DNA of 64,000 nucleotides. Origin: Albidovulum aestuarii. GTDB taxonomy: Bacteria; Pseudomonadota; Alphaproteobacteria; Rhodobacterales; Rhodobacteraceae. Below, in pieces: positions 1,910-53,924 of the stretch. The stretch is from NCBI RefSeq assembly GCF_029961185.1, contig NZ_JASBQQ010000004.1, forward strand, positions 248,001 through 312,000. The letters run 5' to 3'. The translations under genes and the position numbers were made by a program. Position 1 is the first letter of the stretch. Each line of letters starts with the position of its first letter. Under the pieces are notes generated by a model that worked only from the letters and a program-made list of their open reading frames with translations, made no database searches and was not told the DNA's origin.

Positions 1910-3466
1910 ATGACGATGAATCTATCAGGGGTTTCGCGGCGTTCGTTCCTCGCTGCGGCAGGTGCATTCGGGGCTGCGACGGTGGCGGTGCCACGCATGG
2001 CTTTGTCGCAGGACGGGAAAGTTCTGACACTCAGGTCCTATTCAGACATTCAGGTTCTCGATCCGGCCTTCCGTCTGTCTCTGCCCGAGGGCGATATCAT
2101 CACCGCGATCTTCGCACCCATGGTGACCCCGCAGCCCGGCGACACATGGGACTGGAAGGCCGTTGCCGTTGACAGCATCGAACAGCTCGACGATGTCACC
2201 GTCGCATTTACCCTGAAGGACAATATCGGCTTCACCGATGGTTACGGCCAGATGACGGCCGAAGACGTAAAATTCTCAATCGAGCGTTTTGCCGACCCGG
2301 CCATGGAAAGCCCCTATGCAGGCGACTGGTCTGCGCTGAAGGAAGTCGAGGTCAAGGACAAGCTCTCGGGCCTCATCCACCTCAAGAACAAGTTCGTCCC
2401 GCTCTGGACAACGACCCTGCCGACGGCGGCTTCCTGCATCTTGTCCAAGCGCGCGATGGAGGAACTGGGCGACAAGATAACGACGAAACCGGTTGCACAA
2501 TCTGGCCAGTACCTGCTTGCCGAATGGGTGCCCAAGCAGAAAACCATTCTGCGCCGCAACCCCGACTGGCAGCACGAGCCGGGCGGGTTCGACGAGATCC
2601 ATATCATCCCGATTGAAGACCCTGCGACGGCGGAACGCGGTTTTGAGGCCGGGGACCTTGACTACACCTGGACCTCCGTGTCGTCGATTCCGCGCCTGAA
2701 GGAGAACCCGCCCGCAGGCAGCGTCGTGCTGGAAAAGCCATCGCTCGCCTATGTCTGGCTGGGGATGAACCAGGACAACGAGGCGCTCAAGGACGTTCGC
2801 ATCCGCCGGGCGATCCAGCACGCCATTGACCGCACGTCTGTGGTGGATGCGGCCTATTTCGGGGCTGCTGCCGTGGGCAACGGCATCATCGCGCCGGGCC
2901 TGCCGGGATCGCGCGACAGCGTGACCTACGACTATGACCCCGACAAGGCGCGCGCGTTGCTGGCCGAGGCAGGGGCAGAGGGTCTGACGGTAACGCTCGA
3001 TATCCTCAACCAGTCCGAACGGCTCTCGGCGGCTCAGGTCATTCAGGCCAACCTGGCCGATGTCGGCGTCACCTGCGAAATCAAGCAGAATGACAGCGGC
3101 ACGTTCTGGACGCTTGGGGCGAAGGAGGGCGATTACTTCATGAACCTCCAGTTGATCCTCAGCCGCTTCTCGATGCAGCCGGACCCGAGCTGGGCCACGG
3201 TCTGGTTCACCCCCGAACAGGTCGGCGTCTGGAACTGGGAACGGTTCAACAACGCCGAGTACAAGGACCTGCACGAACAAGGGCTCGTTGAAAGCGACAA
3301 CGCGAAACGCGACGAGATCTACAAGAAGATGCAGGGGCTCATGGATGAAAGCGGATGCTACGTGTTCCTCACCCATGAGGTCGTTGGCGCGATCCACCGC
3401 GACACGATCCAGCCGGGGCTGAAACCGAACGGCGAGTCACTGCTCGCCGAGTTCAAGTCCGCCTAA
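1910..3466 (+). CDS. Dipeptide/oligopeptide-type ABC transporter substrate-binding protein (family 5)
   Basis: A 518-residue periplasmic binding protein of the SBP_bac_5 (DppA/OppA) family, first gene of module A. The N-terminus has a twin-arginine signal (VSRRSFLAAAGAFGAA) and a cleavage region near ALSQDG. Family landmarks are EDVKFSIERF, the lobe segment KDVRIRRAIQHAIDR and YDPDKARALLAEAGAEG. It presumably captures the module's substrate and delivers it to the two permeases directly downstream. A GC-rich stem-loop follows the stop. Family 5 proteins bind peptides, opines, metal chelates and glycosides, so the ligand cannot be read off. Confidence 0.9.
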   Translation: MTMNLSGVSRRSFLAAAGAFGAATVAVPRMALSQDGKVLTLRSYSDIQVLDPAFRLSLPEGDIITAIFAPMVTPQPGDTWDWKAVAVDSIEQLDDVTVAFTLKDNIGFTDGYGQMTAEDVKFSIERFADPAMESPYAGDWSALKEVEVKDKLSGLIHLKNKFVPLWTTTLPTAASCILSKRAMEELGDKITTKPVAQSGQYLLAEWVPKQKTILRRNPDWQHEPGGFDEIHIIPIEDPATAERGFEAGDLDYTWTSVSSIPRLKENPPAGSVVLEKPSLAYVWLGMNQDNEALKDVRIRRAIQHAIDRTSVVDAAYFGAAAVGNGIIAPGLPGSRDSVTYDYDPDKARALLAEAGAEGLTVTLDILNQSERLSAAQVIQANLADVGVTCEIKQNDSGTFWTLGAKEGDYFMNLQLILSRFSMQPDPSWATVWFTPEQVGVWNWERFNNAEYKDLHEQGLVESDNAKRDEIYKKMQGLMDESGCYVFLTHEVVGAIHRDTIQPGLKPNGESLLAEFKSA

Positions 3467-3473
3467 AGGGACA

Positions 3474-3497
3474 GGGGCGGCCCGCAAGGGTCGCCCC
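3474..3497 (+). terminator. Intercistronic GC-rich stem-loop after the binding-protein gene
   Basis: Ten-base arms (3474-3483 and 3488-3497) pair with a single G-U wobble around a GCAA loop. No run of T follows, so it is more likely an RNA-stabilising or attenuating hairpin than a full terminator. Such hairpins often separate the abundant binding-protein message from the permease genes, as they would here. Confidence 0.5.
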
Positions 3498-3511
3498 GCC
3501 ATTTCACCAGC

Positions 3512-4456
3512 ATGCTGCATTATACCCTCTCACGCCTCGGGCTGGCCGTGCTCATCGTCTCCGTGGCGATGCTGATCCTGTTTTCCATGATCTACCTGAT
3601 CCCGGGCGACCCTGCCGCCGTGGCGCTCGGCCCGCGTGCAACGGCCGCGATGCGCGAGGCGCTGCGGATCAAGATGGGACTCGATCAGCCGGTCTGGGTG
3701 CAGTTCTGGAACTTCTTCATCAATGCCTGGCAGGGCGATCTGGGGAACGAGGTTCTGTCGGACAGACCAGTTTCCCGTGTCGTTCTGGAACAGTTGCCCT
3801 ACACGCTCGCGCTGATCGCGGGCGGCATGGTCTGGTCGGTCGCGCTCGGCATTCCGCTTGGCTGCTGGGCCGCCGTGAAGCGCGGCAGCCTTGCCGACCG
3901 GCTGGTTGGCGTTCTCAGCGTCGCGGTCATCGCGGTGCCGTCCTTCGTCGTCGCGATCTACGCGCTTCTCATCTTCGCTGTGTCACTGCGCTGGTTGCCG
4001 GCGATCGGGGCAGGGGAGCCGGACGATCTCGGCGACCAACTCGTCCATCTCATTCTGCCCTCCATCGCTGTCGGGCTCGGCTGGGTCGGATACATCGCGC
4101 GCATGGTCCGCGCCTCGATGCTGGAGGTGCTGGAGGCGCAGCATATCCGCACCGCGCGCGCCTTTGGCCTGCCCGACAACCAGATCACCTATCAATACGC
4201 GCTGACCATCGCGATCCTGCCGACGATCACGCTGCTCGGTGTCGGGATCGGGCAGATGCTGTCCTCGGCGGTCTTCGCCGAGATCGTCTTCGCCCGTCCG
4301 GGTGTCGGCAAGCTCGTCTACGATGCGATCCTGACCCGCAACTACCCGCTCGTCACCGGCGCCGTGCTCGTAACGACCGTTCTCTTCGTCCTCATCAACC
4401 TCGTCGCCGATCTCATTGTCGGAGCCCTTGATCCCCGTGTCCGCAGCAGTTTCTAA
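3512..4456 (+). CDS. ABC transporter permease, DppB type
   Basis: A 314-residue inner-membrane permease of the DppB/OppB type with about six membrane helices. It opens with MLHYTLSRLGLAVLIVSVAM and the family motif LIPGDPAAVALGPRA; the first periplasmic loop carries IKMGLDQPVWVQFW. The cytoplasmic EAA-like loop, which contacts the ATPases, reads IRTARAFGLPDNQITYQYAL. The stretch FVVAIYALLIFAVSLRWLPA is nearly the same as in the DppB gene of module B, so the two transporters are paralogues. It pairs with the downstream DppC-type permease, whose start overlaps its 3' end. Confidence 0.93.
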   Translation: MLHYTLSRLGLAVLIVSVAMLILFSMIYLIPGDPAAVALGPRATAAMREALRIKMGLDQPVWVQFWNFFINAWQGDLGNEVLSDRPVSRVVLEQLPYTLALIAGGMVWSVALGIPLGCWAAVKRGSLADRLVGVLSVAVIAVPSFVVAIYALLIFAVSLRWLPAIGAGEPDDLGDQLVHLILPSIAVGLGWVGYIARMVRASMLEVLEAQHIRTARAFGLPDNQITYQYALTIAILPTITLLGVGIGQMLSSAVFAEIVFARPGVGKLVYDAILTRNYPLVTGAVLVTTVLFVLINLVADLIVGALDPRVRSSF

Positions 4457-5294
4457 CACCTTACGGTCCGCCCGACGGATCATGGCTGAGCCTTTGGGCG
4501 CGCTCGGGATCATATTGGTATTGCTGGTCGTCGGCGGCGCGGTCTTTGCTGACCTGATCGCCAGCGCCGATCCGAACAAGATCGCGCCGCGCGACCGGTT
4601 TCTTTCACCCTCCATCGACCACCTGATGGGCACCGATCAGTTGGGCCGCGATCTCTTCGCACGGGTCCTGCATGGTGGGCGGATCGCGCTTTCGGTCGCG
4701 CTCTTTGCCACCGCGGCGTCGCTCGCGGTTGGAATCGTGTTGGGGCTGATCGCCGGTTACGGGCCGCGCTGGCTCGACAACATCATGATCCTTGTCTTCG
4801 ATGCTCTGAAAAGCTTTCCGACCGTCATGCTGGCACTGGCGCTTGTGACGCTCTTCGGCCCGTCGCTGACGGCGGTCGTTGTTGTCGTCGTCCTTGTGAA
4901 CGTGCCAGGTTACGCGCGGATCATCCGCACCCAGACGCTGGCGCTGAAATCGGCTGAATTCGTCACAGCCGCACAAAGCATGGGGGCAGGGGCCGGACGT
5001 ATCCTCAGGGTACATGTCCTGCCGAACGTGATCGGTCCCCTGCTGATCCTCGCCTCGATGGACATCCCCGTCGTCATCGCAATCGAGGCCGGGATGTCAT
5101 TTCTCGGCCTCGGTGTGCGACCGCCGACCCCGTCCTGGGGCGCGATCCTGAACGACGGTTTCACCGCGATCCGGGATACGCCATGGATCGCTGTCGCGGG
5201 CGGGCTTCCGATCATCCTGACGACGCTTGGGTTCACCTTCCTTGGCGAAGCCCTGCGCGATGTGTTCGATCCCAGACTGAAGGGGCGCGGATGA
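4437..5294 (+). CDS. ABC transporter permease, DppC type
   Basis: The second membrane subunit (285 residues from GTG 4437), with the usual DppC order: short cytoplasmic tail, first helix at LGALGIILVLLVVGGAVFAD, then HLMGTDQLGRDLFARVLHGG, and the EAA loop TAAQSMGAGAGRILRVHVLPN. There is no ATG ahead of the conserved N-terminus. GTG 4437 gives the same N-terminal length as the module B paralogue; TTG 4416 is an alternative. Either way the gene overlaps dppB, implying translational coupling. The stop overlaps the next start as ATGA. Confidence 0.9.
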   Translation: MSAAVSNTLRSARRIMAEPLGALGIILVLLVVGGAVFADLIASADPNKIAPRDRFLSPSIDHLMGTDQLGRDLFARVLHGGRIALSVALFATAASLAVGIVLGLIAGYGPRWLDNIMILVFDALKSFPTVMLALALVTLFGPSLTAVVVVVVLVNVPGYARIIRTQTLALKSAEFVTAAQSMGAGAGRILRVHVLPNVIGPLLILASMDIPVVIAIEAGMSFLGLGVRPPTPSWGAILNDGFTAIRDTPWIAVAGGLPIILTTLGFTFLGEALRDVFDPRLKGRG

Positions 5295-6250
5295 CGGTCC
5301 TGTCGATCCAAAACCTCAATGTGACCTTCTCGACCGAAGGCGGTGACCTGCATGCGCTGAAGGACGTGTCCTTTGAGGTACCCGAACGGCGCATCGTCGG
5401 CATCGTCGGCGAATCCGGCTGCGGCAAGTCGACCCTGATCAACGCGATCCTCGGGCTGCTCGCCGATAACGGTCGTGTTTCTGGTGGCGAGATGATGTTT
5501 CAGGGGCGCGACCTGTCGCGTTTGTCCCCGCGCGAGATGACGGCACTGCGCGGCCCGCAGATCGCGACGGTGTTTCAGGACCCGATGGGCGCGCTGAACC
5601 CGGTCATCTCGGTCGGGCGGCAGATGACCAACATCCAGTACCGCTCTGGCCTGAGCAAGGCGGAGAAGGCCGAGCGCGCGGTGGCGATGCTGCGCCGCGT
5701 GCGCATCCCCGACCCCGAGGCGGCGCTCGCGCGGTTCCCGCACCAGTTTTCGGGCGGCATGAAGCAACGCATCGCCATCGCCATGGCGCTGATGATGGAG
5801 CCTGCGCTCTTGATCGCGGATGAACCGACGACCGCGCTCGACGCGACGCTGGAGGTCGCGACGATCGAGCTGTTGCAGGAGCTTCAGGCCCAGATCGGTT
5901 GTTCTGTTCTTTTCATTTCGCACCATCTGGGCGTGATCGCTGAGCTTTGCGAGGATGTGGTCGTCATGTATGCGGGCGAGGTGGTTGAGCGTGGCACCAC
6001 CCGTCAGGTCTTCAACTCCTCGCGTCATCCCTATACCGAACGGCTTTTAGACTGCGACCCCGCCCGGCAATCGAGCCGCACCCGGCATCTGCCGACGATC
6101 CCGGGCGAAATTCCCGATCTGCGCGCCCGTCCGCCCGGCTGCATCTTCGCGCCGCGCTGTCACCGCCGGGCACCCGTCTGCGATACTCCGCCGCCGGAAG
6201 AAACCGTTCAGAGCGGCCATGTCGCCCGTTGCCACATGGTGACGCCATGA
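5291..6250 (+). CDS. ABC transporter ATP-binding protein, DppD type
   Basis: A 319-residue ATPase of the dipeptide/oligopeptide class. Walker A is GESGCGKSTLINAI, the signature is FSGGMKQRIAIAMAL, Walker B is LLIADEPTTALD, and the switch His is in FISHHLGVIAELC. The C-terminal oligopeptide-ABC extension carries the Cys-rich motif PGCIFAPRCHRRAPVC, seen in DppD-type subunits. ATG 5291 overlaps the DppC stop as ATGA. It forms the heterodimeric motor with the next gene product. Confidence 0.93.
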   Translation: MTVLSIQNLNVTFSTEGGDLHALKDVSFEVPERRIVGIVGESGCGKSTLINAILGLLADNGRVSGGEMMFQGRDLSRLSPREMTALRGPQIATVFQDPMGALNPVISVGRQMTNIQYRSGLSKAEKAERAVAMLRRVRIPDPEAALARFPHQFSGGMKQRIAIAMALMMEPALLIADEPTTALDATLEVATIELLQELQAQIGCSVLFISHHLGVIAELCEDVVVMYAGEVVERGTTRQVFNSSRHPYTERLLDCDPARQSSRTRHLPTIPGEIPDLRARPPGCIFAPRCHRRAPVCDTPPPEETVQSGHVARCHMVTP

Positions 6251-7227
6251 TCCTGTCTGTCCGCGATCTTCAGGTCTCGTTCCCGGTCGGGCGACTCATG
6301 AGCCGCAGCGCCATTCTCGGTGTTGCCGGGGTCAGTTTCGATATCGCCGCCGGGGAAACCTTCGCGCTCGTCGGCGAAAGCGGCTCGGGGAAGACGACGC
6401 TCGCGCGGGCGGTCAACTTGCTGCAGCCAATCTCGGCGGGCGAGATCACTTTCGACGGCAAACGGATTGACGGTCTCAGGGGGGCGGACACGAAACCGCT
6501 GCGCCGCGAGATGGCGATGATGTTCCAGGACCCGGTCGGCTCGCTCTCGCCGCGGATGCAGGTCCGTGACATCGTGACCGAACCGTTCCGCGTCCATGGT
6601 GTGGAGGCCGATCTCAGGGCCGAGGCAGACCGCCTTCTGTCCCTTGTCGGGCTTTCGGGCGATTTCGCCAACCGGTTTCCGCATCAGCTGTCGGGCGGGC
6701 AGGCGCGGCGCGTCGGCGTCGCTCGGGCCATCGCGCTCAACCCGAAACTCATCATCGCCGACGAACCAACCGCCGGGCTTGACGTCTCGGTGCAGGGCGA
6801 GGTGCTGAACCTCTTGAACGAACTGCGCGAACGGCTCGGGCTCGCCATGCTGATCATCACCCACAACCTGCATGTCGTGCACCATGTCGCTGACCGGATG
6901 GCAGTGATGTATCTCGGGCGCTTCGTCGAGACGGGCGAGACCGAGGCGATCTTTCAGGCGCCCGCGCATCCCTATACAGCCGCACTCCTCAGCGCCAATC
7001 CCGAACCCGATCCGGACAAGGCGAAGGACCGGATTTCGCTTCCGGCCGAGGTGCCGTCGCTGCTTGCGCGGCCAACGGGATGCGAGTTCCACACGCGTTG
7101 CCCGTGGGCACAGGCGCGGTGCAGGACCGAGGCCCCGGCGGCCCAGGGCACGGACCGCCGCATCGCCTGCCATTTTCCGTTGTCGCCGGGCGCACGCCCC
7201 CCGGCCTTTAAGGAGACCGCGCCATGA
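6247..7227 (+). CDS. ABC transporter ATP-binding protein, DppF type
   Basis: A 326-residue partner ATPase. Walker A is GESGSGKTTLARAV, the signature is LSGGQARRVGVARAI, Walker B is LIIADEPTAGLD, and the C-terminal Cys motif is GCEFHTRCPWAQARC. ATG 6247 overlaps the previous stop as ATGA, and its own stop overlaps the start of the CocE hydrolase in the same way. So transporter and hydrolase are translationally coupled, which argues that the hydrolase acts on the imported compound. Confidence 0.93.
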   Translation: MILSVRDLQVSFPVGRLMSRSAILGVAGVSFDIAAGETFALVGESGSGKTTLARAVNLLQPISAGEITFDGKRIDGLRGADTKPLRREMAMMFQDPVGSLSPRMQVRDIVTEPFRVHGVEADLRAEADRLLSLVGLSGDFANRFPHQLSGGQARRVGVARAIALNPKLIIADEPTAGLDVSVQGEVLNLLNELRERLGLAMLIITHNLHVVHHVADRMAVMYLGRFVETGETEAIFQAPAHPYTAALLSANPEPDPDKAKDRISLPAEVPSLLARPTGCEFHTRCPWAQARCRTEAPAAQGTDRRIACHFPLSPGARPPAFKETAP

Positions 7228-9236
7228 CAGAGGTGATTGAAACCGTCTGGGTCCCCATGCCCGACGGGGTGAAGCTTGCCGCGCGGCTGTGGCTGCCCGA
7301 CGGCGCACGGCAAAAGCCGGTCCCGGCGGTCCTCGAATACATCCCCTATCGCCGCCGCGACCGCACCCGGATGCGCGATGAAAGCATGCACCCCCATTTC
7401 GCCGCTGCGGGCTATGCCGCGATCCGGGTCGACATTCGCGGCTATGGCGACAGCGAGGGCGTCGCTGAAGACGAGTATTCGCATCAGGAGATTCAGGACG
7501 GCCACGACGTCATTCAGTGGATCGCCGAACAGGACTGGTGCGATGGCAATGTCGGCATGTTCGGCAAAAGCTGGGGCGCCTACAATTCATTCCAGGTCGC
7601 GGCGACCCGTCCGCCCGCGCTCAAGGCCATCGCGCCGGTCATGGGCTGCGATGACCGCTGGCGCGAGGACATCCATTTCTATGGCGGCTGCCTTGCCAAC
7701 GACAATTTCTGGTGGGGCTCGATCATGCAGCTCTACAACGCCATGCCGCCCGATCCGGCGATCGTCGGTGCGGATCGTTGGGAAACGATGTGGCGCGAGC
7801 GGCTGGAGGCGATGCGATTCTGGCCCGCGATGTGGCTGGAGCATCAGACACATGACGAGATGTGGCGGCGCGGCTCGATCTCAGAGAACTATGCCGATGT
7901 CGAGGTGCCGGTCTATTTCTTCGGCGGTTGGGCAGACCTCTTCCGCGATACGCCGTTTCGCATCGCCGAGCATCTGAAGGGGCCGGTGAAGGTGCTGATG
8001 GGGCCATGGGCCCACCTTTATCCACATGAGGGCAGCCCGACCCCGAAAGCAGATTTCGTGGCCGAGGTGATCCGGTTCTGGGATCACTGGCTGAAGGGGC
8101 AGGATACCGGGCTGATGGATGAACCGCCGCTGCGGTTCTGGTTGCAGGACAGCATCGCCCCTGCCGGAAGCCAGGATCACAGGCCAGGCCGCTGGGTGGA
8201 GGAGGCACGGTGGCCATCACCGAATGTGTCCGACCGGGTGCTTTGGCTGAATTCTGACGGGCTGGGTGAAGTGCCGCAGGAGGGAGCGGACATGGCGATC
8301 TGCTCGCCGCAGACCTTCGGCTCGGCTGGCGGCGACATGTGTTCCTTCGCCATCCCCGGCGACATGCCGACCGATTGCCGGAGCGATGCTGGCGGTGCGC
8401 TGCAGCTTCACGGTCCGGTGCTCGATGCGCCCGTCGACATCCTTGGTCAGCCGACACTCGACCTCCACATCGGCGCCGATCGTCCACAGGGCATCGTTGC
8501 GGTCTTGCTGATCGATGAGGCGCCCGATGGCGCGCAGACCCTGATCACGCGCGGGTTCTGCAACCTGACCCATCGACACGACGACACCACTCCCGCCCCT
8601 GTCATCCCGGGCGAGGAGATGGCGGTGACCGTACCGCTGCACGGAATCGGCTACCGGGTTCTGGAAGGGCATCGGTTGGTCGTGCAGGTCGCGTCGGCCT
8701 ATTGGCCGATCCTCTGGCCTGCACCTGAGCCGGTGACGCTGACGCTAAGCGCCGGAACGTCGGCGCTTCATCTGTCGGTGCGCACCGCGACACCCGACGC
8801 CCCCGAACCGCGAGAGCTGCCCGACCCGCCGAAGCACGAGGGCCGTCGCCCGGTCACGCGGGTGCGCGACGGGTCAATGGAGCGTTCGATCCATGCCGAC
8901 CTGACAACCGGCCTTGAAACCCAGCGTTTCTTCCTCGATGGCGGTGTCTTCGGCCCCGTGGGCGATCTAAGGCTCGACGATATCGGCACGGTTCTGGGCG
9001 ATATCTCCGACCGCCGCTACACGATCCACGCTGCCGACCCGCTGACCGCGCGCGCGACGATGGAGCAGGAGGCGCGGTTCACCCGCGATGACTGGAAGGT
9101 GCGGATCAAGACCTATGCCGAACAGACTGCGACAGCGACCGATTTTCACCTGACCGCCCGGATCCAATGCTGGAGCGGTGACGATCTGTTCTTCGAGGAC
9201 GACCAGTCCTTCACCATCCCGCGCAACGGAATGTAA
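7224..9236 (+). CDS. CocE/NonD family hydrolase (module A, first copy)
   Basis: A 670-residue cytoplasmic hydrolase with the full CocE layout: alpha/beta core with cap, then a C-terminal jelly roll. Catalytic triad by motif: Ser in MFGKSWGAYN, Asp in FFGGWADLFRD, His in MGPWAHLYPH. The jelly roll begins near VDILGQPTLDLHIGADRPQG. No signal peptide is present. The family includes cocaine esterase, X-Pro dipeptidyl peptidases and beta-lactam acylases, so both esters and amides are possible substrates. It overlaps dppF by four bases and is followed after three bases by a paralogue. Confidence 0.92.
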   Translation: MTEVIETVWVPMPDGVKLAARLWLPDGARQKPVPAVLEYIPYRRRDRTRMRDESMHPHFAAAGYAAIRVDIRGYGDSEGVAEDEYSHQEIQDGHDVIQWIAEQDWCDGNVGMFGKSWGAYNSFQVAATRPPALKAIAPVMGCDDRWREDIHFYGGCLANDNFWWGSIMQLYNAMPPDPAIVGADRWETMWRERLEAMRFWPAMWLEHQTHDEMWRRGSISENYADVEVPVYFFGGWADLFRDTPFRIAEHLKGPVKVLMGPWAHLYPHEGSPTPKADFVAEVIRFWDHWLKGQDTGLMDEPPLRFWLQDSIAPAGSQDHRPGRWVEEARWPSPNVSDRVLWLNSDGLGEVPQEGADMAICSPQTFGSAGGDMCSFAIPGDMPTDCRSDAGGALQLHGPVLDAPVDILGQPTLDLHIGADRPQGIVAVLLIDEAPDGAQTLITRGFCNLTHRHDDTTPAPVIPGEEMAVTVPLHGIGYRVLEGHRLVVQVASAYWPILWPAPEPVTLTLSAGTSALHLSVRTATPDAPEPRELPDPPKHEGRRPVTRVRDGSMERSIHADLTTGLETQRFFLDGGVFGPVGDLRLDDIGTVLGDISDRRYTIHAADPLTARATMEQEARFTRDDWKVRIKTYAEQTATATDFHLTARIQCWSGDDLFFEDDQSFTIPRNGM

Positions 9237-9239
9237 GCC

Positions 9240-11261: not shown

Positions 11262-11301
11262 ACACGACCGGCGTGACCCCGCGGCGAATGGAGGAGTGTG
11301 A

Positions 11302-12162: not shown

Positions 12163-12189
12163 CGCCCCGCGCAGCAAAGATGGTCAGCG

Positions 12190-13683: not shown

Positions 13684-13863
13684 GATACTGCCGCCGATGG
13701 TCGGCCGCCAAACCAGTCTAGACACCTCTGTACCAAATATCCGCACAGAAGACTGCATTATGTATTTATCAATAGGATTGACTCCGTTCACATATGTACG
13801 GAAAGGTGATACAGAAGGCCGGTGGAACGCCGTTCAGCGGCGGCAAGGATGGGGGGATACCGC
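13684..13863 (+). promoter_or_regulatory. AT-rich gap before the DMGDH-like gene, probable promoter region
   Basis: This 180-base gap holds an AT-rich patch (about 13730-13800) and a perfect palindrome ACATATGT at 13790-13797. A TTGACT at 13778 has no well-spaced -10 partner that I can see. A second promoter for 13864-19694, possibly under the TetR regulator at its end, would be placed here. Confidence 0.3.
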
Positions 13864-16266: not shown

Positions 16267-16267
16267 G

Positions 16268-17488: not shown

Positions 17489-17493
17489 GGAGC

Positions 17494-19029: not shown

Positions 19030-19031
19030 AC

Positions 19032-35267: not shown

Positions 35268-35307
35268 GGTCAGCCTCCTTGCTGGATATGGGTGGGTCAT
35301 GGGCGGT

Positions 35308-36959: not shown

Positions 36960-37057
36960 CGAAACCAGCCTTCCCCATGCCGTTTGCGAGGCACAGTGAG
37001 GGGTTACACAGCCATAAATCAAATAGATAATTGAAATTCTAAATATTGATGTAATCT
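36960..37057. promoter_or_regulatory. Divergent control region between the Pot/BKACE operon and LysR gene
   Basis: A 98-base region with an AT-rich LysR-proximal half. At 37025-37040 AGA and AATT blocks face AATT and CT blocks to form an imperfect dyad, a possible LysR site. Binding is inferred from layout only. Confidence 0.4.
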
Positions 37058-39392: not shown

Positions 39393-39403
39393 CGCACCAC
39401 GCG

Positions 39404-42203: not shown

Positions 42204-42363
42204 AGTCAGGCCCATCGGATTTCTGACCGCCACACACGCGCCACCTGCGCCATTCTGGTGCGGGCGGTTTCGTGGCAGGTCATGATTGATTGCTGGTTCA
42301 ACAATCCGGCTTGACAGACTCACTGAACGCCACAACTATACGGTAGTTCAACAGAGAATCCCA

Positions 42364-45944: not shown

Positions 45945-45952
45945 GGGAGCCG

Positions 45953-47971
45953 ATGACGACGATCCGCGAGACATTTCCGAACGAGGTCGAGATTGTCGAG
46001 AATATCTTCGTCCCGATGCCCGACGGCACACGCCTCGCGGCCAAGCTCTGGCGGACGAAGGGCGTGGGGCCCGTGCCCGCGATCCTCGAATACCTGCCTT
46101 ACCGGAAGCGCGAGGGAACGCGTGGCCGCGACCAGAAGATGCATGCATGGCTGGCAGGTCACGGCTATGCCTGCTTGCGGCTCGACATCAGGGGAACCGG
46201 CGACAGCGAGGGGCTGATCGACGATGAGTATACCGAGCAGGAGATCGTTGACGGTTGCCATGCGATCGCATGGATCGCCGCACAGGACTGGTGCGACGGA
46301 CAGGTCGCGATGTACGGAATTTCCTGGGGCGGGTTCAACGGCCTCCAGATCGCCGCCCGACGGCCGCCGACCCTCAAGACGATCATCACGGTGGGCTCCA
46401 CCGACGACCGCTATGCGACCGATGTCCACTATGTCGGCGGGTGCCTCTCAAAGGACAATTTCGACTGGTCGGCCACCATGCTCGCCCATAACGACTTGCC
46501 GCCCGACCCGGATATCGTCGGGCCAAAGTGGCGCGAGATGTGGCAGGCCCGGATGCGCCACAACGCGCCGTGGATCCTCCACTGGCTGGCCCATCAGCGG
46601 CGCGACAGCTACTGGCGGCACGGTTCGGTCTGCGAAGACTTCTCGGCCATCGACATCCCGGTCTTCGCGGTCTCTGGCTGGGCCGACAACTATTCCGAAA
46701 GCGTACCGCGCCTTCTGGCGGGGCTATCGGGCCCAAGGCGCGGGTTGATCGGCCCCTGGGCGCATTCCTTCCCGCATGACGTGGCGGTCGAACCCGCCAT
46801 CGGCTGGCTGCAGGAGGTGAAACGCTGGTGCGATCACTGGATGAAGGGCGTCCCGGGTGGAGTCATGGAGGACCCGATGTACCGGGTCTGGATGCAGGAA
46901 AGCGTGCCGCCGTCGACCTGCTACCTTGAACGCCAGGGACGCTGGGTAGCCGAGGCGGACTGGCCGTCGCCCCGGATCGAACACCGGGCGCTACATCTGA
47001 ACGCGGGCAGGCGGCTTGGGTCGGAACCGTCGGAGAGCGAGGACGCCACCATCTGCTCACCCCTCTGGGTCGGCCTCGCCTCAGGTGAGGTCGGGCGCTA
47101 TGGCGAGGACGCCGAATGGCCGACCGACCAGCGCGAGGATGACGGCGGATCGCTCGTCTTCCTGTCCGAGCCGCTACCGGGTCGCACCGAAATCCTCGGA
47201 GCACCGCAACTGCATCTGCGGTTTTCCTGCGACAAGCCGCTGGCTCTGGTCGCGGTCAGGCTGAACGACGTGATGCCCGACGGCCGGTCCACGCGGGTCA
47301 CGCTCGGCTGCCTGAACCTGACTCACCGGGAAGGCCACAGCGACCCCAAGCCGCTGGAGCCGGGAAAGGTCTACGACGCCATCATCGACCTTGACGACAT
47401 CGCCCATGCCTTCCCGGCGGGCCACCGGATCGCGGTCGCGCTTTCGACGACTTACTGGCCAATCGCATGGCCGTCGCCCGAGCTAGCCACGCTGACCATG
47501 CGGACGGGTGAGACGTGGCTTGATCTGCCGGTCCGTCCCTCAGATCCGGCTGACAGCACCTTGCGCACCTTTGATCCGCCAGAGATGGCGTCGCCGACGC
47601 CTTCGACTGATCTTCCCACTGAACCGGCGGTGCGGCGCACCGTCGCACGCGACCTTCTGAGCGGCGAAATGGTCGTCGACTTCCCGCGCTGGACCTATGC
47701 GCACGAGATGCCGGATATAGGTCAGACCGTGATATCGGACGCCTTCGCCCGCTATCGCATCACCGATGGCGATCCCCTCTCAGCGACCTGCGAAACCGGG
47801 GCGAATGTCATCATTCACCGCAAGGACGGTGCATTCGGTCATCATTCAACCGGCAGGCTTTCCTGCGACGCCACCCATTTCCGGGTCGAGACGACCCTGC
47901 GGATCACCGAAAACGACACGACAGTGTTCGAGCGCGAATGGGACGAAAGGATCCCGCGTGACAATGTGTAA
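45953..47971 (+). CDS. CocE/NonD family hydrolase (module B)
   Basis: A 672-residue cytoplasmic hydrolase with alpha/beta core, cap and C-terminal jelly roll. Triad motifs: Ser in MYGISWGGFNGLQIAARRPP, Asp in VSGWADNYSES, His in IGPWAHSFPH. Sequence blocks match the second CocE of module A more than the first. It sits between an MttB gene and the second Dpp-type importer, as expected if it cuts the imported molecule and frees a methylated amine. Substrate unknown. Confidence 0.92.
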   Translation: MTTIRETFPNEVEIVENIFVPMPDGTRLAAKLWRTKGVGPVPAILEYLPYRKREGTRGRDQKMHAWLAGHGYACLRLDIRGTGDSEGLIDDEYTEQEIVDGCHAIAWIAAQDWCDGQVAMYGISWGGFNGLQIAARRPPTLKTIITVGSTDDRYATDVHYVGGCLSKDNFDWSATMLAHNDLPPDPDIVGPKWREMWQARMRHNAPWILHWLAHQRRDSYWRHGSVCEDFSAIDIPVFAVSGWADNYSESVPRLLAGLSGPRRGLIGPWAHSFPHDVAVEPAIGWLQEVKRWCDHWMKGVPGGVMEDPMYRVWMQESVPPSTCYLERQGRWVAEADWPSPRIEHRALHLNAGRRLGSEPSESEDATICSPLWVGLASGEVGRYGEDAEWPTDQREDDGGSLVFLSEPLPGRTEILGAPQLHLRFSCDKPLALVAVRLNDVMPDGRSTRVTLGCLNLTHREGHSDPKPLEPGKVYDAIIDLDDIAHAFPAGHRIAVALSTTYWPIAWPSPELATLTMRTGETWLDLPVRPSDPADSTLRTFDPPEMASPTPSTDLPTEPAVRRTVARDLLSGEMVVDFPRWTYAHEMPDIGQTVISDAFARYRITDGDPLSATCETGANVIIHRKDGAFGHHSTGRLSCDATHFRVETTLRITENDTTVFEREWDERIPRDNV

Positions 47972-47992
47972 GAGGGGGCACCTGGCGGCCAG

Positions 47993-48943
47993 ATGCTGAG
48001 ATACGCCATCAAGCGCATCGCCCTTGCTTTCGTGATCCTGATCACGGTGATGCTGGCGATGTACGCGATGGTGTTCCTCGTGCCCGGCGATCCGGCCTCG
48101 CTCGCGCTCGGGCCACGGGCCACGCCGGAACTGAAGGAACTGCTGCGCGAGAGGATGGGGTTGGATGAGCCCGTCCTGATGCAGGTCTGGCACTTCTTCC
48201 ACAACGCGCTGACCGGCGATCTGGGCTATGACGTGTGGTCCAAGCGGCCTGTTCTCGACCAGATCCTTGAGTTTTTCCCGAACACGCTGATCCTGGGGAT
48301 CACCGCGCTTGGCTGGGCCGTTGTCCTGGGCATCGCCCTTGGCTGCGCCGCGGTTGTCTGGCGGGGCACTGTCACCGACCGACTTCTGGGCGTCCTGTCG
48401 GTCGGGCTGATTTCGGTCCCCGCCTTCGTCGTCGCGATCTATGCGATCCTGATCTTCGCGGTCTGGCTGCGCTGGCTGCCCGCGATCGGGGCCGGCACGC
48501 CGGGTGATATCGGCAGCCAGATCCGCGCGCTGATCCTGCCCGCCTTCGCGCTTGGCATCGGCTGGGTCGGATATCTCGCGCGTCTGGTGCGCGCCTCGCT
48601 GCTGGAGGTGATGGGGGAGAACTACATCCGCACCGCCCGGGCCTTTGGATTGCCTGAGCGTCGCGTCGTCTTCCGCTACGCCCTGCGCGTCGCGATCATT
48701 CCCACCATTGCGCTTCTGGCGGTTGGGCTCGGCTCAATCCTTTCAAGCGCGGTCTTCGTGGAAACCGTCTTTGGCAGGCCCGGAATTGGTACGCTGATCA
48801 CCGGTGCCGTTCAGAAGCGGAATTATCCGGTCGTCATGGGCACGGTCCTTTTCATGACCGCCTTCTACCTTTTCATCGTCACCGCCGCCGATCTTCTGAT
48901 TGCGCGGCTCGATCCGAGGGTGCGCGATGTCTTCCGGCGGTAA
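47993..48943 (+). CDS. ABC transporter permease, DppB type
   Basis: A 316-residue permease, paralogue of the module A DppB. It opens MLRYAIKRIALAFVILITVM with LVPGDPASLALGPRATPELK, and the EAA loop IRTARAFGLPERRVVFRYAL. It shares long near-identical stretches with module A, for example FVVAIYAILIFAVWLRWLPA. It overlaps the DppC-type start by 17 bases. Confidence 0.93.
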   Translation: MLRYAIKRIALAFVILITVMLAMYAMVFLVPGDPASLALGPRATPELKELLRERMGLDEPVLMQVWHFFHNALTGDLGYDVWSKRPVLDQILEFFPNTLILGITALGWAVVLGIALGCAAVVWRGTVTDRLLGVLSVGLISVPAFVVAIYAILIFAVWLRWLPAIGAGTPGDIGSQIRALILPAFALGIGWVGYLARLVRASLLEVMGENYIRTARAFGLPERRVVFRYALRVAIIPTIALLAVGLGSILSSAVFVETVFGRPGIGTLITGAVQKRNYPVVMGTVLFMTAFYLFIVTAADLLIARLDPRVRDVFRR

Positions 48944-49784
48944 GTTCAGGGTGCTCCGTGCGCTGCTCTCTGACCCGATGGGGGCGCTCGGGCTGATCCT
49001 TGTCCTGCTTTTTGTCGCGATGGCGCTCTTCGCGCCCTGGGTCGCACCCGCCGATCCGATCAAGCTGAACGTTATGGAAAAATTTCAGCCACCGTCGCTG
49101 TCGCACCTTGCAGGTACCGACCAACTGGGCCGGGACCTTCTGTCGCGCATCATCTTCGGGGCGCGGACGGCCCTGTCGATCGCGCTGACATCGGTCGGGC
49201 TTGCCGGGTTAGGCGGGCTGATCCTTGGTATGATCGCTGGGTTCGGGCCGCGCTGGCTGGATGCGCTACTGGTGCTCGCGTTCGACTCGATGTCGTCGCT
49301 GCCGATGATCATGTTCGCGCTTGCGGTCATCACCATCGTCGGCCCCGGCACCGGGACGCTGATCCTTGTCGTCGTCCTCGTCTCGATCCCCGCCTATGCG
49401 CGATTGATCCGCGCCCAGACGCTGAGCCTTGCGGGTGCAGACTTCATCGTGGCCGAGCGCGCGATGGGGGCATCGTCTGCCCGTATCCTCTTCCGCCACC
49501 TGTTGCCGAACGTGGTCGGCCCCCTGGTCATCCTTCTGTCGATGGATGTGCCGATCGTGATCATGCTTGAGGCCGGGCTTTCCTACCTCAACCTCGGGGT
49601 CAGGCCGCCGACGCCATCATGGGGCAACATCCTTTACGACGGTTACACCTCGATCCGTGCGGCGCCCTATATGGTGCTGATCGCGGGTTTGCCGCTGGTC
49701 CTGTCCACGCTCGGCTTCACCTTCCTCGGCGAAGGGCTGCGCGACGCGCTTGACCCAAAGCTTAGACGGGGGGCGGCGCGATGA
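48927..49784 (+). CDS. ABC transporter permease, DppC type
   Basis: A 285-residue permease with first helix at MGALGLILVLLFVAMALFAP, then SHLAGTDQLGRDLLSRIIFG, and the EAA loop VAERAMGASSARILFRHLLP. ATG 48927 gives the standard DppC N-terminal tail. The stop overlaps the DppD-type start as ATGA. Paralogue of the module A DppC. Confidence 0.92.
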   Translation: MSSGGKFRVLRALLSDPMGALGLILVLLFVAMALFAPWVAPADPIKLNVMEKFQPPSLSHLAGTDQLGRDLLSRIIFGARTALSIALTSVGLAGLGGLILGMIAGFGPRWLDALLVLAFDSMSSLPMIMFALAVITIVGPGTGTLILVVVLVSIPAYARLIRAQTLSLAGADFIVAERAMGASSARILFRHLLPNVVGPLVILLSMDVPIVIMLEAGLSYLNLGVRPPTPSWGNILYDGYTSIRAAPYMVLIAGLPLVLSTLGFTFLGEGLRDALDPKLRRGAAR

Positions 49785-50752
49785 GCGAAGCGGTCCTGTC
49801 AGTCGAGAACCTGTCGCTGCGATACCGCGTTCCCGGGGGTACGGTCGCGGCACTCAGGAACGTGAGCCTTGCCGTGCGACAGGGCGAGGTGCTGGGCATC
49901 GCGGGTGAAAGCGGCTGCGGCAAGTCGACCCTTGCCTCAGCGATGATCGACCTGATGGGAGCAAATGCCGAAATCACCTCGGGCGCGGTCTGCCTGAACG
50001 GGTGTGACATCCTCTCCCTGCCGCGCGCAGAACGGCGACGGCTGCGCGGGCGCGAGATCGCGATGGTCTTCCAGGATCCTATGACCGCCTTCAGCCCGGT
50101 CCTGACCGTCGGTGCGCAGCTTGTCGACTTTCAGTTCAACCTCGATGGCGTAACAGGGCGCGAGAAATGGAGCCGTGCGCGGGATATGCTGGCGCGTGTC
50201 GGCCTGTCGGACCCGGACCTCGCGATGGGACGGTTCCCGCATGAACTGTCGGGTGGCATGCGCCAGCGCGCGGCCATCGCGGCGGCGCTTCTGATGCGGC
50301 CCGCCGTTCTGATCGCAGATGAACCGACGACCGCGCTGGACGTGACGATGGAGGCGCAGATCGTCCACCTTCTGCGCGAGTTGCAGGCGGATTACCAGTG
50401 CGCAATCGTTATCGTCACGCACCATCTGGGCGTGATTGCCGAACTGTGCGACCGGGTCGCGGTCATGTATGCGGGCGAGGTGGTCGAAGAGGCACCGGTC
50501 GACGCGCTCTACCACGATCCCCGCCACCCCTATACCCGCGCGCTTCTGTCCTGCGACCCGGCCGGGATCGAGGCGGCGACGGGCAGGCTGCCGGCGATCG
50601 GTGGGCGGCTGCCTGACCTGTCCGACCTACCGCCCGGCTGCACCTTCGCCGCCCGCTGCGGGATCGCGACAGATCGTTGCCGGACGGTGCCGCCGCCGTG
50701 CGTGGCGCTTGGTCCAGACCGAAGCGCCCTTTGCCACGAGGTTGCGCCATGA
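49781..50752 (+). CDS. ABC transporter ATP-binding protein, DppD type
   Basis: A 323-residue ATPase. Walker A is GESGCGKSTLASAM, the signature LSGGMRQRAAIAAAL, Walker B VLIADEPTTALD. The C-terminal Cys motif is GCTFAARCGIATDRC. It overlaps both neighbours by four bases. It works with the following DppF-type ATPase to power the importer. Confidence 0.93.
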   Translation: MSEAVLSVENLSLRYRVPGGTVAALRNVSLAVRQGEVLGIAGESGCGKSTLASAMIDLMGANAEITSGAVCLNGCDILSLPRAERRRLRGREIAMVFQDPMTAFSPVLTVGAQLVDFQFNLDGVTGREKWSRARDMLARVGLSDPDLAMGRFPHELSGGMRQRAAIAAALLMRPAVLIADEPTTALDVTMEAQIVHLLRELQADYQCAIVIVTHHLGVIAELCDRVAVMYAGEVVEEAPVDALYHDPRHPYTRALLSCDPAGIEAATGRLPAIGGRLPDLSDLPPGCTFAARCGIATDRCRTVPPPCVALGPDRSALCHEVAP

Positions 50753-51735
50753 CCGCGCTTCTGTCGATCCGCGACGTCAGCGTCGTCCTGCCGACGGGCG
50801 GCTGGTTTGGGGGTGCCGCGCCACTGAATATCCTTGCTGGCGTCACGCTCGACCTCATGCCGGGCGAGACGCTGGGGCTTGTCGGGGAAAGCGGATCGGG
50901 CAAGACCACGCTCGCCCGCGCGATTCTCGGGTTGCAGCCGATCAGCGCCGGTCGGGTCCGTTTCGATGGCAGGGATCTGATCCACTCCGCAGGTTTCAAG
51001 GCGATCCGACCGCGAACGGCGCTGATGTTTCAGGACGCGACGGCATCGCTTTCCCCGCGCATGACGGTGGGCGACGCGGTGACCGAGCCTTTCTCGATCC
51101 ATGGCGTTGCAGTGAGAAATCACCGGGACAAGGCCGCCGAGCTTCTGGCCGAGGTCGGCCTTCCGCCTGAAATGGCGACGCGTTACCCGCACGAGCTATC
51201 TGGCGGGCAGGCCCGGCGTGTGGGTGTCGCGCGGGCGCTGGCGCTGAAACCTGCGCTCGTGATCGCTGATGAGCCGACGGCGGGGCTCGATGTCTCGGTG
51301 CAGGCGGAAATCCTGAACCTCATGGCCGACCTGAAGGACAGGCACGGGCTGAGTTACCTGATCATCACTCACAATCTGGCGCTGGTCCGGCACGTGGCCG
51401 ACCGCATCGCGGTGCTCTATCTCGGGCGGCTGGTCGAAACTGGTCCTACGCGCGCCATCTTTGCCGAACCCCGCCACCCCTACACACAAAGCCTGATCGC
51501 GGCAGAACCAAAGCCCGACCCGCGCAAGCGCCGTGCCGATCTGGCGATCCGTGGCGAGATTCCAAGCATTCTGCGCCGTCCGAAGGGATGCGAATTCCAC
51601 ACGCGATGCCCCTTGGCCGAGGACATCTGCCGTACGACCCCGCCTGCTCTGAAGGAACTCGGTTACGGCCGTTCGGTGCGCTGCCATTTTACTGAAACCA
51701 CAACTGAGGGAGGAAGACATGAACTGGAACACTGA
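50749..51735 (+). CDS. ABC transporter ATP-binding protein, DppF type
   Basis: A 328-residue ATPase. Walker A is GESGSGKTTLARAI, the signature LSGGQARRVGVARAL, Walker B LVIADEPTAGLD, and the Cys motif GCEFHTRCPLAEDIC. ATG 50749 overlaps the previous stop. Its 3' end overlaps the binding-protein gene by 17 bases and contains that gene's ribosome site. Confidence 0.93.
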   Translation: MTALLSIRDVSVVLPTGGWFGGAAPLNILAGVTLDLMPGETLGLVGESGSGKTTLARAILGLQPISAGRVRFDGRDLIHSAGFKAIRPRTALMFQDATASLSPRMTVGDAVTEPFSIHGVAVRNHRDKAAELLAEVGLPPEMATRYPHELSGGQARRVGVARALALKPALVIADEPTAGLDVSVQAEILNLMADLKDRHGLSYLIITHNLALVRHVADRIAVLYLGRLVETGPTRAIFAEPRHPYTQSLIAAEPKPDPRKRRADLAIRGEIPSILRRPKGCEFHTRCPLAEDICRTTPPALKELGYGRSVRCHFTETTTEGGRHELEH

Positions 51736-53269
51736 CAGACGGCAATTCCTGAAACTCACTGGCGCCGGTCTGGCCGCTGCGGCCGCCTCGCCGCATTTCG
51801 CCTGGGCCGCCGAGGGCGATACGCTGCGCATCCGTGTGACCTCCGATTTCCAGGTGCTGGACCCCTGGGGGATCATCGGGGAACTGGATGAGATCATACC
51901 GCGCTGCACGCAGGTCTCACTTGTGCGGATGGGTGACATGCGCGCGGGCAATCAGTGGGAGCTCTACGCTGCCGAAAAACTGGAATGGCTCGATGGTACG
52001 CGGCTGGCCTTCACGTTGCGCGAGGGCCTTGTCTGGACGGGTGACTACGGCCCCGTGACCGCCAATGACGTCAAATTTTCTTACGAACGCATCGCCGGGT
52101 CGGACAGCGCCTGGGCTTACCAGTTCGAGAAACTGAAGGAGGTCGAGGTGATCGACGACCGGAACGGCGTCATCCACCTGACCGAGGCCTTCGCGCCCTT
52201 CATCGTCATCGCGATGCCCTATTACGGGGGGCATATCGTCTGCAAGGCGGCGGTCGAGGCCGCGGGCGGCCAGTATACGACCGAGATCCCGGCCCAGTGC
52301 GGGCCCTACCTGCTTGGCAGTTGGGAACAGCAGCAGAAGGTGACGCTGGTCACGAACCCGGCCTGGAGCGGTGAAAAGCCCGCCTTCGCGACGGTCGAGA
52401 TCTACATCGTGACCGACGATCAGGCGGCACAGCTTGCCTATGAGGCCGATGCATTCGACTACACCCGCCTCGCACCCGGCGCGGTCAAGCAGCTGAAAGA
52501 CGCGATGCCACAAGGCGCGACACTGATCGAGGCGGAGTCGACCCGCTATGTCTGGCTGACCATCAACCAGAACGCCGAACCGTTGAAAGACATCCGCGTA
52601 CGGCAGGCGATCCAGTACGCTTATGACAGCGACGCAGTACTTCAGGGTGCCTATGACGGTCTAGTCAGCCGTTCGGCAGGCGTCGTTCAGCCCGGCACCG
52701 CCTTTGCGCGTGAAAAGAACATCATCGACACACGCGACGTTGAAAAGGCCAAGGCGCTTCTGGCCGAGGCCGGGGCAGAGGGGTTGACGCTGAACCTCGT
52801 GACGCAGACGGATTCAACCTCGCAGGCCATCTCCCAGATCATCCAGGCAAGCCTTGCCGAGGCCGGGATCACCGTCGTGATCCAGCCGACCGAGGATGCT
52901 GCCTACTGGGCCCTGGGTGATAAGACGGCCGGGGACGATTACCTGTCGCTGGAACTTGTCCTTCAAAGCTTCGCGGGAGGCGTGGACCCGACCGAAAACC
53001 TCGTCTGGTTCCGCCCGGACCAGATCGGCGTCTACAACTGGACATTCTTCGACAGCGCAGAATACGAGGAGCTCTACCAGAAGTCGCTGACCGAACTGGA
53101 CACCGAAAAGCGCCGGGCCATGTTCAACCGGATGGAGGACCTGATGGAGGAGTCGGGATCGTTCGTCTTCATCTGCTTTGAGCCGCTGGTGGCGATCCAC
53201 GATTCAAATATCGGCCCGGTCATCCTTTCCGACGGGCACCCCGATCCGGTAAGGTTCACGCGAACCTGA
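51719..53269 (+). CDS. Dipeptide/oligopeptide-type substrate-binding protein (family 5), Tat-exported
   Basis: A 516-residue binding protein of the SBP_bac_5 family. The twin-arginine signal is TDRRQFLKLTGAGLAAAAAS with cleavage near AWAAEG. Family blocks: NDVKFSYERIAGSD, KDIRVRQAIQYAYDSDAV, RDVEKAKALLAEAGAEGLTL. GGGAGG stands just before ATG 51719. Unlike module A, the gene is last in its transporter operon. It resembles the module A protein throughout, so the two ligands are probably related. A perfect hairpin follows the stop. Confidence 0.91.
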   Translation: MNWNTDRRQFLKLTGAGLAAAAASPHFAWAAEGDTLRIRVTSDFQVLDPWGIIGELDEIIPRCTQVSLVRMGDMRAGNQWELYAAEKLEWLDGTRLAFTLREGLVWTGDYGPVTANDVKFSYERIAGSDSAWAYQFEKLKEVEVIDDRNGVIHLTEAFAPFIVIAMPYYGGHIVCKAAVEAAGGQYTTEIPAQCGPYLLGSWEQQQKVTLVTNPAWSGEKPAFATVEIYIVTDDQAAQLAYEADAFDYTRLAPGAVKQLKDAMPQGATLIEAESTRYVWLTINQNAEPLKDIRVRQAIQYAYDSDAVLQGAYDGLVSRSAGVVQPGTAFAREKNIIDTRDVEKAKALLAEAGAEGLTLNLVTQTDSTSQAISQIIQASLAEAGITVVIQPTEDAAYWALGDKTAGDDYLSLELVLQSFAGGVDPTENLVWFRPDQIGVYNWTFFDSAEYEELYQKSLTELDTEKRRAMFNRMEDLMEESGSFVFICFEPLVAIHDSNIGPVILSDGHPDPVRFTRT

Positions 53270-53277
53270 CCTTGCGG

Positions 53278-53299
53278 CGGCGCCCTTTGCCGGGCGCCG
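53278..53299 (+). terminator. Perfect 8-base GC stem-loop after the binding-protein gene
   Basis: Arms CGGCGCCC (53278-53285) and GGGCGCCG (53292-53299) pair fully around a 6-base loop. No T run follows, so it may act as a 3' RNA stabiliser, as for the module A hairpin after its binding-protein gene. The TetR gene begins 20 bases later. Confidence 0.5.
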
Positions 53300-53318
53300 T
53301 CACCATCCGGGGATCCTG

Positions 53319-53924
53319 ATGCCGCAGAAAGCCACGTCGCCAAAATATGTCCGACTGACCGGAGAGGAGCGGCGCGCCCGGCTGATAGAGGCGGGTCTGG
53401 CCTGCATGGCGCGGGGCGGTATCCAGGAATTCACCGTGGATAAGATCTGCGCCGAGGCGGGCGTGTCGCGCGGGTTGATCATCCATCATTTCGGTTCGAT
53501 GAACGCGCTTTTGACCGCAGTCTACGCGACGATGTATGACGGGTCGACCAAGCTCACCCGTGACCTCGCCCCCGGTGAAACGCGGCTGGCCGCTCTGCTT
53601 AATGCATTCTTCGCACCTGAAGTCTTCAACCGTGAAGCCTTCAATATCTGGCTTACCCTCTGGGGACAAATCTCGATCAACCCTGACCTCAGAGACGAGC
53701 ATCGGGTGCAATACGCGGACTATGTTCGTGACGTTGCGGACGCGATCAGCGAGGTGGCGGTGGCGCGTGGGAGGAATGTCGATGCCGATGCTCTGGCCCG
53801 CTCGCTCGTCTGCCTGATTGACGGCCTCGGCATCCAGCACTGCATCGAGCCGACGTCGATGCAGGCCGACGATGCGAAAGCGGCGTGTCGGTTCTTCCTG
53901 CTGCCACATCTCGGCAGCTTCTGA
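53319..53924 (+). CDS. TetR-family regulator, BetI-like
   Basis: A 201-residue regulator. The HTH is FTVDKICAEAGVSRGLIIHHFGSMNALLTA, here split for reading as FTVDKICAEAGVSRGL and IIHHFGSMNALL; the IIHHFG segment resembles BetI, the choline/betaine repressor. The C-terminal domain also has the BetI-like length. It closes module B as another TetR closes module A. Likely a local repressor with a betaine-like ligand; the ligand is inference. Confidence 0.87.
   Translation: MPQKATSPKYVRLTGEERRARLIEAGLACMARGGIQEFTVDKICAEAGVSRGLIIHHFGSMNALLTAVYATMYDGSTKLTRDLAPGETRLAALLNAFFAPEVFNREAFNIWLTLWGQISINPDLRDEHRVQYADYVRDVADAISEVAVARGRNVDADALARSLVCLIDGLGIQHCIEPTSMQADDAKAACRFFLLPHLGSF

Follow-up and report, generated by a model that had tools for sequence, protein, structure and literature searches.

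Does the side-by-side arrangement of genes for a peptide-type importer, a hydrolase and an MttB-family methyltransferase, seen twice within one short stretch of an Albidovulum aestuarii genome, reflect a dedicated pathway, and if so, for what kind of compound? The window that we analysed is the whole 64,000-nucleotide stretch at positions 248001-312000 of contig C23 in the host genome (G000, 4.24 Mb), in which module A covers 1910-19694 and module B 42286-53924. A first-pass annotation of this DNA had proposed that the two are paralogous forms of one conserved uptake-cleave-demethylate system. Using Pfam and NCBIfam profile searches, we recovered each of the gene families it named in both modules where it had placed them, and added a partner demethylase to each, an OYE-type flavoprotein in B and a DMGDH-type flavoprotein in A. 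The proposal of one conserved system stood for module B, whose genes are found together much more often than chance would allow and have kept their grouping under changes of gene order, while for module A it holds weakly. Herein we describe module B as a real and strongly conserved nine-gene system, present in several alphaproteobacterial groups.

Module B lies on the plus strand in the order OYE, MttB, CocE, DppB, DppC, DppD, DppF, SBP5 (family 5 solute-binding protein), TetR. Its first gene encodes OYE_B (42286-44433; PF00724, 236 bits), an FMN- and FAD-containing protein of the TMADH/histamine dehydrogenase family, and shares a 4-base overlap with the gene of the non-pyrrolysine methyltransferase MttB_B (44430-45944; PF06253, 624 bits), which is followed by the CocE/NonD hydrolase CocE_B (45953-47971; Peptidase_S15/PepX_C). 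The importer consists of the permeases DppB_B (47993-48943; PF00528/PF19300) and DppC_B (48900-49784; PF00528/OppC_N; real start probably slightly downstream), the ATPases DppD_B (49781-50752) and DppF_B (50677-51735; real start probably downstream), both with ABC_tran and oligo_HPY domains, and the binding protein SBP_B (51719-53269; PF00496, 214 bits). The regulator TetR_B (53319-53924), with a TetR_N domain and a BetI-type C-terminus (TetR_C_6), completes the set. Each of the two modules has, in one operon, the SBP5, two permeases and two oligo_HPY ATPases that define a Dpp/Opp importer.

The conservation of module B was assessed around relatives of MttB_B, which were retrieved from GTDB contigs by searching with seven orthologues. 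The best 80 of 136 confirmed relatives were retained, a set rich in near relatives and Mesorhizobium, and counts were made on the 56 loci with at least 9 kb on each side (full-flank loci), the other 24 being excluded. Neighbouring genes were predicted with an in-house codon-score caller trained on the window genes, which gave no output at loci L057, L138 and L139 and missed the MttB of L243 as well as the TetRs of L241 and L243, all of which tblastn detects. An OYE was found at 55 of the 56 full-flank loci, CocE at 49, four distinct Dpp genes at 48, SBP5 at 46 and TetR at 50, and OYE, CocE and four Dpp genes occurred jointly at 45. Under stricter limits, 45/56 loci retained four Dpp genes (minimum identity 48%) and 35/56 a CocE (minimum identity 60%). 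What recurs around the MttB_B clade is therefore the module B set itself (TMADH-like OYE, MttB, CocE, DppB, C, D and F, SBP5 and TetR), since any other gene cluster, with the genes of these loci grouped at >45% identity, reached at most seven of the 56. The 80 loci belong mostly to Rhodobacterales and Mesorhizobium, with further members in other Hyphomicrobiales, Pacificispira and alphaproteobacterial bins, and 43 of them carry all eight gene kinds, in three main orders (17, 15 and 8 loci) and three singletons. Within our sample of 149 genomes of the family (own included), MttB_B at 70% identity or more is present in nine, the host among them, and CocE_B orthologues (at least 65%) are found in the same nine. 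The two genes are linked within the fetched regions in seven of these, and G028 has them on different contigs.

The proteins of module B carry most of the features that their families would lead one to expect. The MTTB domain is full-length in both window proteins (662 bits in MttB_A and 624 in MttB_B, cut-off 25), and the claim that they are non-pyrrolysine homologues was borne out, as their frames are open and uninterrupted and the pyrrolysine-type trimethylamine model TIGR02369 scores 280 and 277 bits, below its 525-bit cut-off; 9yce and 2qne resemble the window MttB by sequence (308 bits). The nearest solved relatives of OYE_B are 6l6j, histamine dehydrogenase and TMADH, with bit scores of 494-576 against this branch and ~150 or less against the other OYEs listed. 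Its alignment to 6l6j and the histamine dehydrogenases is nearly full length, and the four cysteines that bind the 4Fe-4S cluster in the TMADH/histamine dehydrogenase family (1djn, 3k30, 6de6, 6l6j) are kept in it (CIGCNMC..C, aligned to CxxCxxC..C). Unlike TMADH, OYE_B has Ala, in the motif QVPHASGM, at the covalent-flavin site, the 6-S-cysteinyl-FMN position Cys30 of TMADH, where 3k30 has Cys and 6l6j Ala. The TMADH chain in the alignment, 1djq, likewise has Ala and is presumably the C30A mutant. Other amine-site positions, those of Tyr60, His172 and Trp264 in TMADH, differ as well. OYE_B is likely the second-step N-demethylase of module B.

CocE_B scores 246 bits against TIGR00976 (cut-off 66.3) and has the Ser-Asp-His set of the CocE/NonD family; its residues S124, D245 and H271 align with those of cocaine esterase, are invariant in 27 sequences and are proposed here as the catalytic triad. 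The structure model (pLDDT 92) has cocaine esterases as its top matches (1ju3 and mutants; TM-score 0.65-0.67 by query and 0.75-0.78 by target), although CocE_B is longer (672 residues vs about 574) and only 22-23% identical to them. No signal peptide is evident in its N-terminus when read by eye, which gives the enzyme a cytoplasmic-looking character. The N-termini of SBP_A and SBP_B, in contrast, appear Tat-like by eye, and for SBP_B the TAT_signal model gave an E-value of 7e-4, under its curated cut-off. The best 50 fold matches of SBP_B include AapF, DppA and MoaA, and the top one is AapF of Pseudomonas sp. PDC86, which was solved with the signal HEHEAA (7kz8, 7kz9), an ethanolamine-derived amide. 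SBP_B and AapF are 22% identical, which is no basis for ligand inference. We considered reading the substrate from the structures of SBP_B and CocE_B and rejected this, since their close fold matches share too little sequence with them (identities of 15-23% in the case of SBP_B and 22-23% between CocE_B and the cocaine esterases) for a ligand to be inferred for either protein.

Members of the MttB superfamily need a corrinoid partner, and the host genome encodes one PF02607 (B12-binding_2/B12-binding) protein, on contig C21, for its ten MttB matches, a count that is blind to corrinoid proteins lacking that domain. Genes of the DUF1638, radical SAM and S-methyl_trans families are found in the vicinity of its gene, and the genome further has one RACo-type activase match and two Pterin_bind matches. 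Among the genomes checked, 11/12 gave a PF02607 match and 7/7 had two Pterin_bind matches. Five of the host's ten MttB loci (A, B, L119, L123 and L124) have a relative of OYE or DMGDH close by. Such a corrinoid hub mechanism has been published for glycine betaine in Ruegeria (Mausz et al. 2025, PMC12478193).

Taken together, we consider it probable that module B works as a self-contained operon for the breakdown of a quaternary-ammonium compound that is bound in an ester or amide conjugate; a quaternary amine in such a linkage is a plausible substrate class. In the pathway that we envisage, the Tat-exported family 5 binding protein and DppBCDF would import the conjugate, which would then be split by the cytoplasmic CocE_B through its Ser-Asp-His triad. 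MttB_B would transfer one methyl group from the quaternary nitrogen to the single, shared MtgC-like corrinoid protein, from where it would pass to tetrahydrofolate via an MtgD-like protein, and the remaining tertiary amine would be oxidatively demethylated by OYE_B. TetR_B, with its BetI-like C-terminus, would repress the operon until the substrate, its presumed ligand, is present. Import, cytoplasmic cleavage and two unlike demethylations make up the simplest order of these steps that we infer. The parts are known families and the hub is published; as a variant on these, we see in module B an MttB branch equipped with an importer and a hydrolase of its own. The open-licence literature, searched by title and abstract start, turned up no description of the nine-gene combination. 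A bolder claim, which we offer tentatively, is that a dedicated pathway in which a corrinoid-dependent MttB receives its substrate from a conjugate importer and hydrolase of its own may here be recognised for the first time, none having turned up in those searches. Alphaproteobacteria would use it to consume natural esters or amides of quaternary-ammonium compounds that form a class not yet recognised (e.g., acyl-betaines or peptide-like compounds with N-trimethyl groups), and MttB would plug into the methionine-synthase corrinoid hub as an adaptor. If true, the hub would reach beyond free osmolytes to conjugated quaternary amines. Aerobic alphaproteobacteria carry numerous MttB-family genes without assigned substrates, ten in the host and 1 to 10 in each of 21 genomes examined. 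Module B links a single clade of them to a single importer, hydrolase, second-step demethylase and regulator, in Rhodobacterales, Mesorhizobium and others. Because that clade is tied to such defined partners, the substrate should be findable by an ordinary growth or ligand screen.

Module A is also encoded on the plus strand. Its importer-hydrolase core is headed by an HTH-cupin regulator (1108-1863; HTH_3 and Cupin_2), a relative of which was called at four orthologous core regions (L038, L062, L086 and L094), and continues with SBP_A (1910-3466; PF00496, 226 bits), the DppBCDF_A transporter genes (3512-7227; two BPD_transp_1 proteins and two with ABC_tran and oligo_HPY), CocE1_A and CocE2_A (7224-11261; Peptidase_S15/PepX_C, TIGR00976), an alpha/beta hydrolase (11302-12162; Abhydrolase_6) and an M81/MlrC-type peptidase (12190-13683; PF07364 and PF07171). 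The tight spacing described by the first-pass annotation holds in general but fails here, where a gap of at least 138 bases between open reading frame (ORF) ends (13684-13821) divides the module into SBP to M81 and DMGDH to TetR. A promoter within the gap was considered and rejected, as none was found there by a simple scan. The second half comprises DMGDH_A (13822-16266; DAO, FAO_M, GCV_T and GCV_T_C), a cytochrome P450 (16220-17488; PF00067), MttB_A (17494-19029; PF06253) and TetR_A (19029-19694; TetR_N; the ORF is listed from 18864, and by eye the ATG at 19029 is the likely start). DMGDH_A combines in one protein the FAD oxidoreductase and the folate-binding GCV_T domain whose fusion is typical of dimethylglycine and sarcosine dehydrogenases, and scores below the curated cut-off of every NCBIfam family among the 25 of its 29 matches listed.

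The two halves of module A usually occur apart. MttB_A (at least 60% identity) is present in 34 of the 149 genomes, and by counting from coordinates by eye we found it within 15 kb of a CocE gene in the host, G126 (which has a second MttB_A at 60% identity) and G033; contig ends may mask further links, as on G020:C24, where MttB_A begins at base 415. L057 and L086 are the two sites outside the host where MttB_A is near CocE. Eight MttB_A sites were compared for their partners. At four, among those of highest identity, orthologues of both DMGDH_A (77-81%) and TetR_A (53-74%) flank the gene (4/4), while of the other four L238 has TetR_A and distant DMGDH relatives only, and L057, L086 and L239 have neither. 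TetR_A orthologues were thus found at L238 and L241-L244, and at L241, L242 and L244, the three orthologous sites with both genes called, DMGDH_A and MttB_A are directly adjacent, without the P450. From these eight sites it follows that DMGDH, MttB and TetR form a separate unit that recurs, and that MttB_A can occur without it. The core was found in ten genomes, nine of which have MttB_A, against 25 of the other 139 (Fisher p 6e-6); these ten were picked after seeing the data, and G033 and G043, which show a partial likeness and have MttB_A, were excluded. The core itself varies, with neither the alpha/beta hydrolase nor M81 found in G140, no M81 match in G144, and G014 and G102 cut by contig ends. 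CocE genomes without the core show no association with MttB_A (p 0.34). Demethylase genes near the core, counted with distant OYE and DMGDH homologues included, occur in 5/9 vs 7/83 cases (p 0.0015), an enrichment that is suggestive. As the core and MttB_A are usually not neighbours, module A is not a conserved module in the proposed form, but a looser arrangement in which an importer with several hydrolases adjoins a demethylation unit, DMGDH-MttB-TetR, that is independent of them. A more distant CocE (31% identical to CocE_B) faces the core from the minus strand (window 1-1053; G000:C23:247464-248105), and a divergent CocE at the core was also seen in G020, G024, G079, G082 and G126.

Several observations weigh against the reading of module B as an operon for conjugated quaternary amines and against its extension to module A. 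CocE is absent from 7/56 and the four-gene Dpp set from 8/56 full-flank loci, and only 35 of the 49 CocEs are at least 60% identical to those of the window, most others being of a Mesorhizobium type at 43-46%. In G034, ~132 kb separates MttB_B from CocE_B, and no PF02607 match was found in G068, a genome that is 76% complete. OYE_B is without the covalent-flavin Cys and parts of the TMADH amine site. MttB_A is rarely near CocE (3/34 genomes), it stands without its DMGDH_A and TetR_A partners at L057 and L086, and our Fisher tests are uncorrected for phylogeny. Finally, at six of the 80 loci (L198, L202, L224, L225, L230 and L232), five of them without CocE, an HDAC-GNAT-BKACE operon adjoins OYE-MttB_B or lies at most two genes away, a hint that either the skeleton of the substrate or the hydrolase is able to vary. 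Dpp genes are present at five of these six and an M19 dipeptidase at L202 and L224; the operon may mark a beta-keto-acid skeleton in a variant substrate. An HDAC-GNAT-BKACE operon is also found in the window (29196-31627), with HDAC and BKACE 60-74% and GNAT 35-41% identical to those of the variant loci.

The best-surviving alternative, in our view unlikely, is that the importer and CocE_B serve to scavenge some common ester or peptide-like compound, and that MttB_B and OYE_B form an independent betaine-type demethylation pair co-located only through induction by the same environment, so that no one conjugate passes through all of the steps. CocE genes were surveyed by PepX_C, with 126 matches in 82 of the 149 genomes, four of them in the host and all at C23:247-296 kb, and their neighbourhoods were analysed as 100 regions of up to 20 kb covering 116 of the matches, of which 81 reach 18 kb; six weak matches (G080, G003 twice, G113:C4, G102:C196 and G014:C15) were left out. 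At least three Dpp subunits were found in 75 of the 100 regions (67 of the 81 reaching 18 kb) and MttB in only ten, so that CocE and Dpp are a common pair in the family, usually without MttB, which speaks for this alternative. A general MttB-CocE association was rejected, as coordinates read in 20 sampled relatives placed the two within 15 kb only in G018 (module B) and G020. The alternative also gains from the presence of OYE-MttB in six of the seven full-flank loci without CocE, and from module A, where such units stand side by side; it does not explain why the CocE_B and MttB_B clades occupy exactly the same nine genomes, nor why the genes of module B remain together across three main orders.

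It is more doubtful still that the substrate of MttB_B is no quaternary amine but, for example, a compound with an O-, S- or halo-methyl group or an N-methyl aromatic, OYE_B then serving as a reductase or amine dehydrogenase for the part that is released. Non-amine substrates are possible for the superfamily, given its mention in work on dichloromethane and chloromethane (PMC9768040, PMC13222342), and the departures of OYE_B from TMADH at the cysteinyl-flavin and in part of the amine-binding site would fit. The named Eubacterium members, however, act on quaternary amines (PMC12478193), OYE_B scores far higher against the TMADH/histamine dehydrogenase branch than against other OYEs, and a relative of OYE or DMGDH accompanies half of the host's MttB loci. 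That abundant families came to lie together by chance is very improbable, despite the abundance of MttB (ten matches over eight contigs) and SBP5 (13 PF00496 matches, two apparently in one frame) in the host and the rarity of the module A MttB-CocE neighbourhood in relatives, since conservation refutes it for B and the shared phyletic pattern of the core and MttB_A contradicts it for A. The first-pass annotation had itself named chance-level co-occurrence as grounds for dropping its proposal: taking 126 CocE genes in 149 genomes and a genome size of 4.0 Mb, co-occurrence is far above chance for B, while MttB_A-CocE proximity is only slightly above it. In the host, too, the grouping exceeds chance, as its CocE genes are confined to C23:247-296 kb and its MttB matches scattered over eight contigs. 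Among these readings, that of a catabolic operon for conjugated quaternary amines stays the most probable for module B.

The paralogy of the two modules, which that annotation had regarded as clear for the transporter, fits DppB and MttB. Transporter subunits are 49-58% identical between A and B, against 39% for the SBPs, 44% for the MttBs and 40-42% for the CocEs. In midpoint-rooted FastTree phylogenies, the A and B clades of DppB and of MttB are sisters (support 1.0 in each case). DppF_A, on the other hand, joins other CocE-linked transporters first, and the CocEs are not clear sisters, CocE_B grouping with the Mesorhizobium-type CocE (0.69) and both CocEs of A falling inside a group of 83. 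A single duplication of the whole module is thus unsupported, and we rejected the idea that A and B arose as two copies of a single unit. Nor do we claim that Mesorhizobium recruited its CocE independently, since the tree places that CocE as a weakly supported sister of CocE_B.

Among characterized systems, the closest is MtgBCD/E of the aerobic roseobacter Ruegeria pomeroyi, which serves glycine betaine demethylation and methionine synthesis and likewise combines a PF06253 MtgB-type protein with stand-alone corrinoid and pterin proteins (PMC12478193). Module B differs from it in that MttB shares an operon with a Dpp importer, CocE and a TMADH-like flavoprotein, partners of which the consulted passages of that study make no mention. 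Up to seven PF06253 ORFs are mentioned in the same source, suggesting further methylated substrates, and it also covers the Eubacterium proteins MtpB, MtyB, MtcB and relatives, substrate-specific MttBs that act through a single corrinoid subunit (PMC12478193). The latter belong to anaerobic acetogens and are likened here by description. To our knowledge, they have no CocE-Dpp partner. In Mesorhizobium alhagi, salt strongly induced an mttB gene, which was judged from its knockout to play no part in salt resistance (PMC4302635, seen in part).

Elsewhere in the host genome, an MttB on contig C4 (L122) adjoins an SBP5/Dpp set together with Ldh_2 and ApbA genes, and no CocE was found there. The window holds a third MttB (21486-23057, minus strand) with a divergent LysR gene; it falls in a clade separate from those of A and B and has relatives of 65-67% identity at L119 and L146. 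Between the modules (23150-42203) lie genes for an agmatine-deiminase-like protein (PAD_porph), a CN_hydrolase, an HDAC, a class III aminotransferase and a BKACE, along with two ABC systems with TOBE-type ATPases, and this gene content suggests polyamine or amino-acid-amine catabolism.

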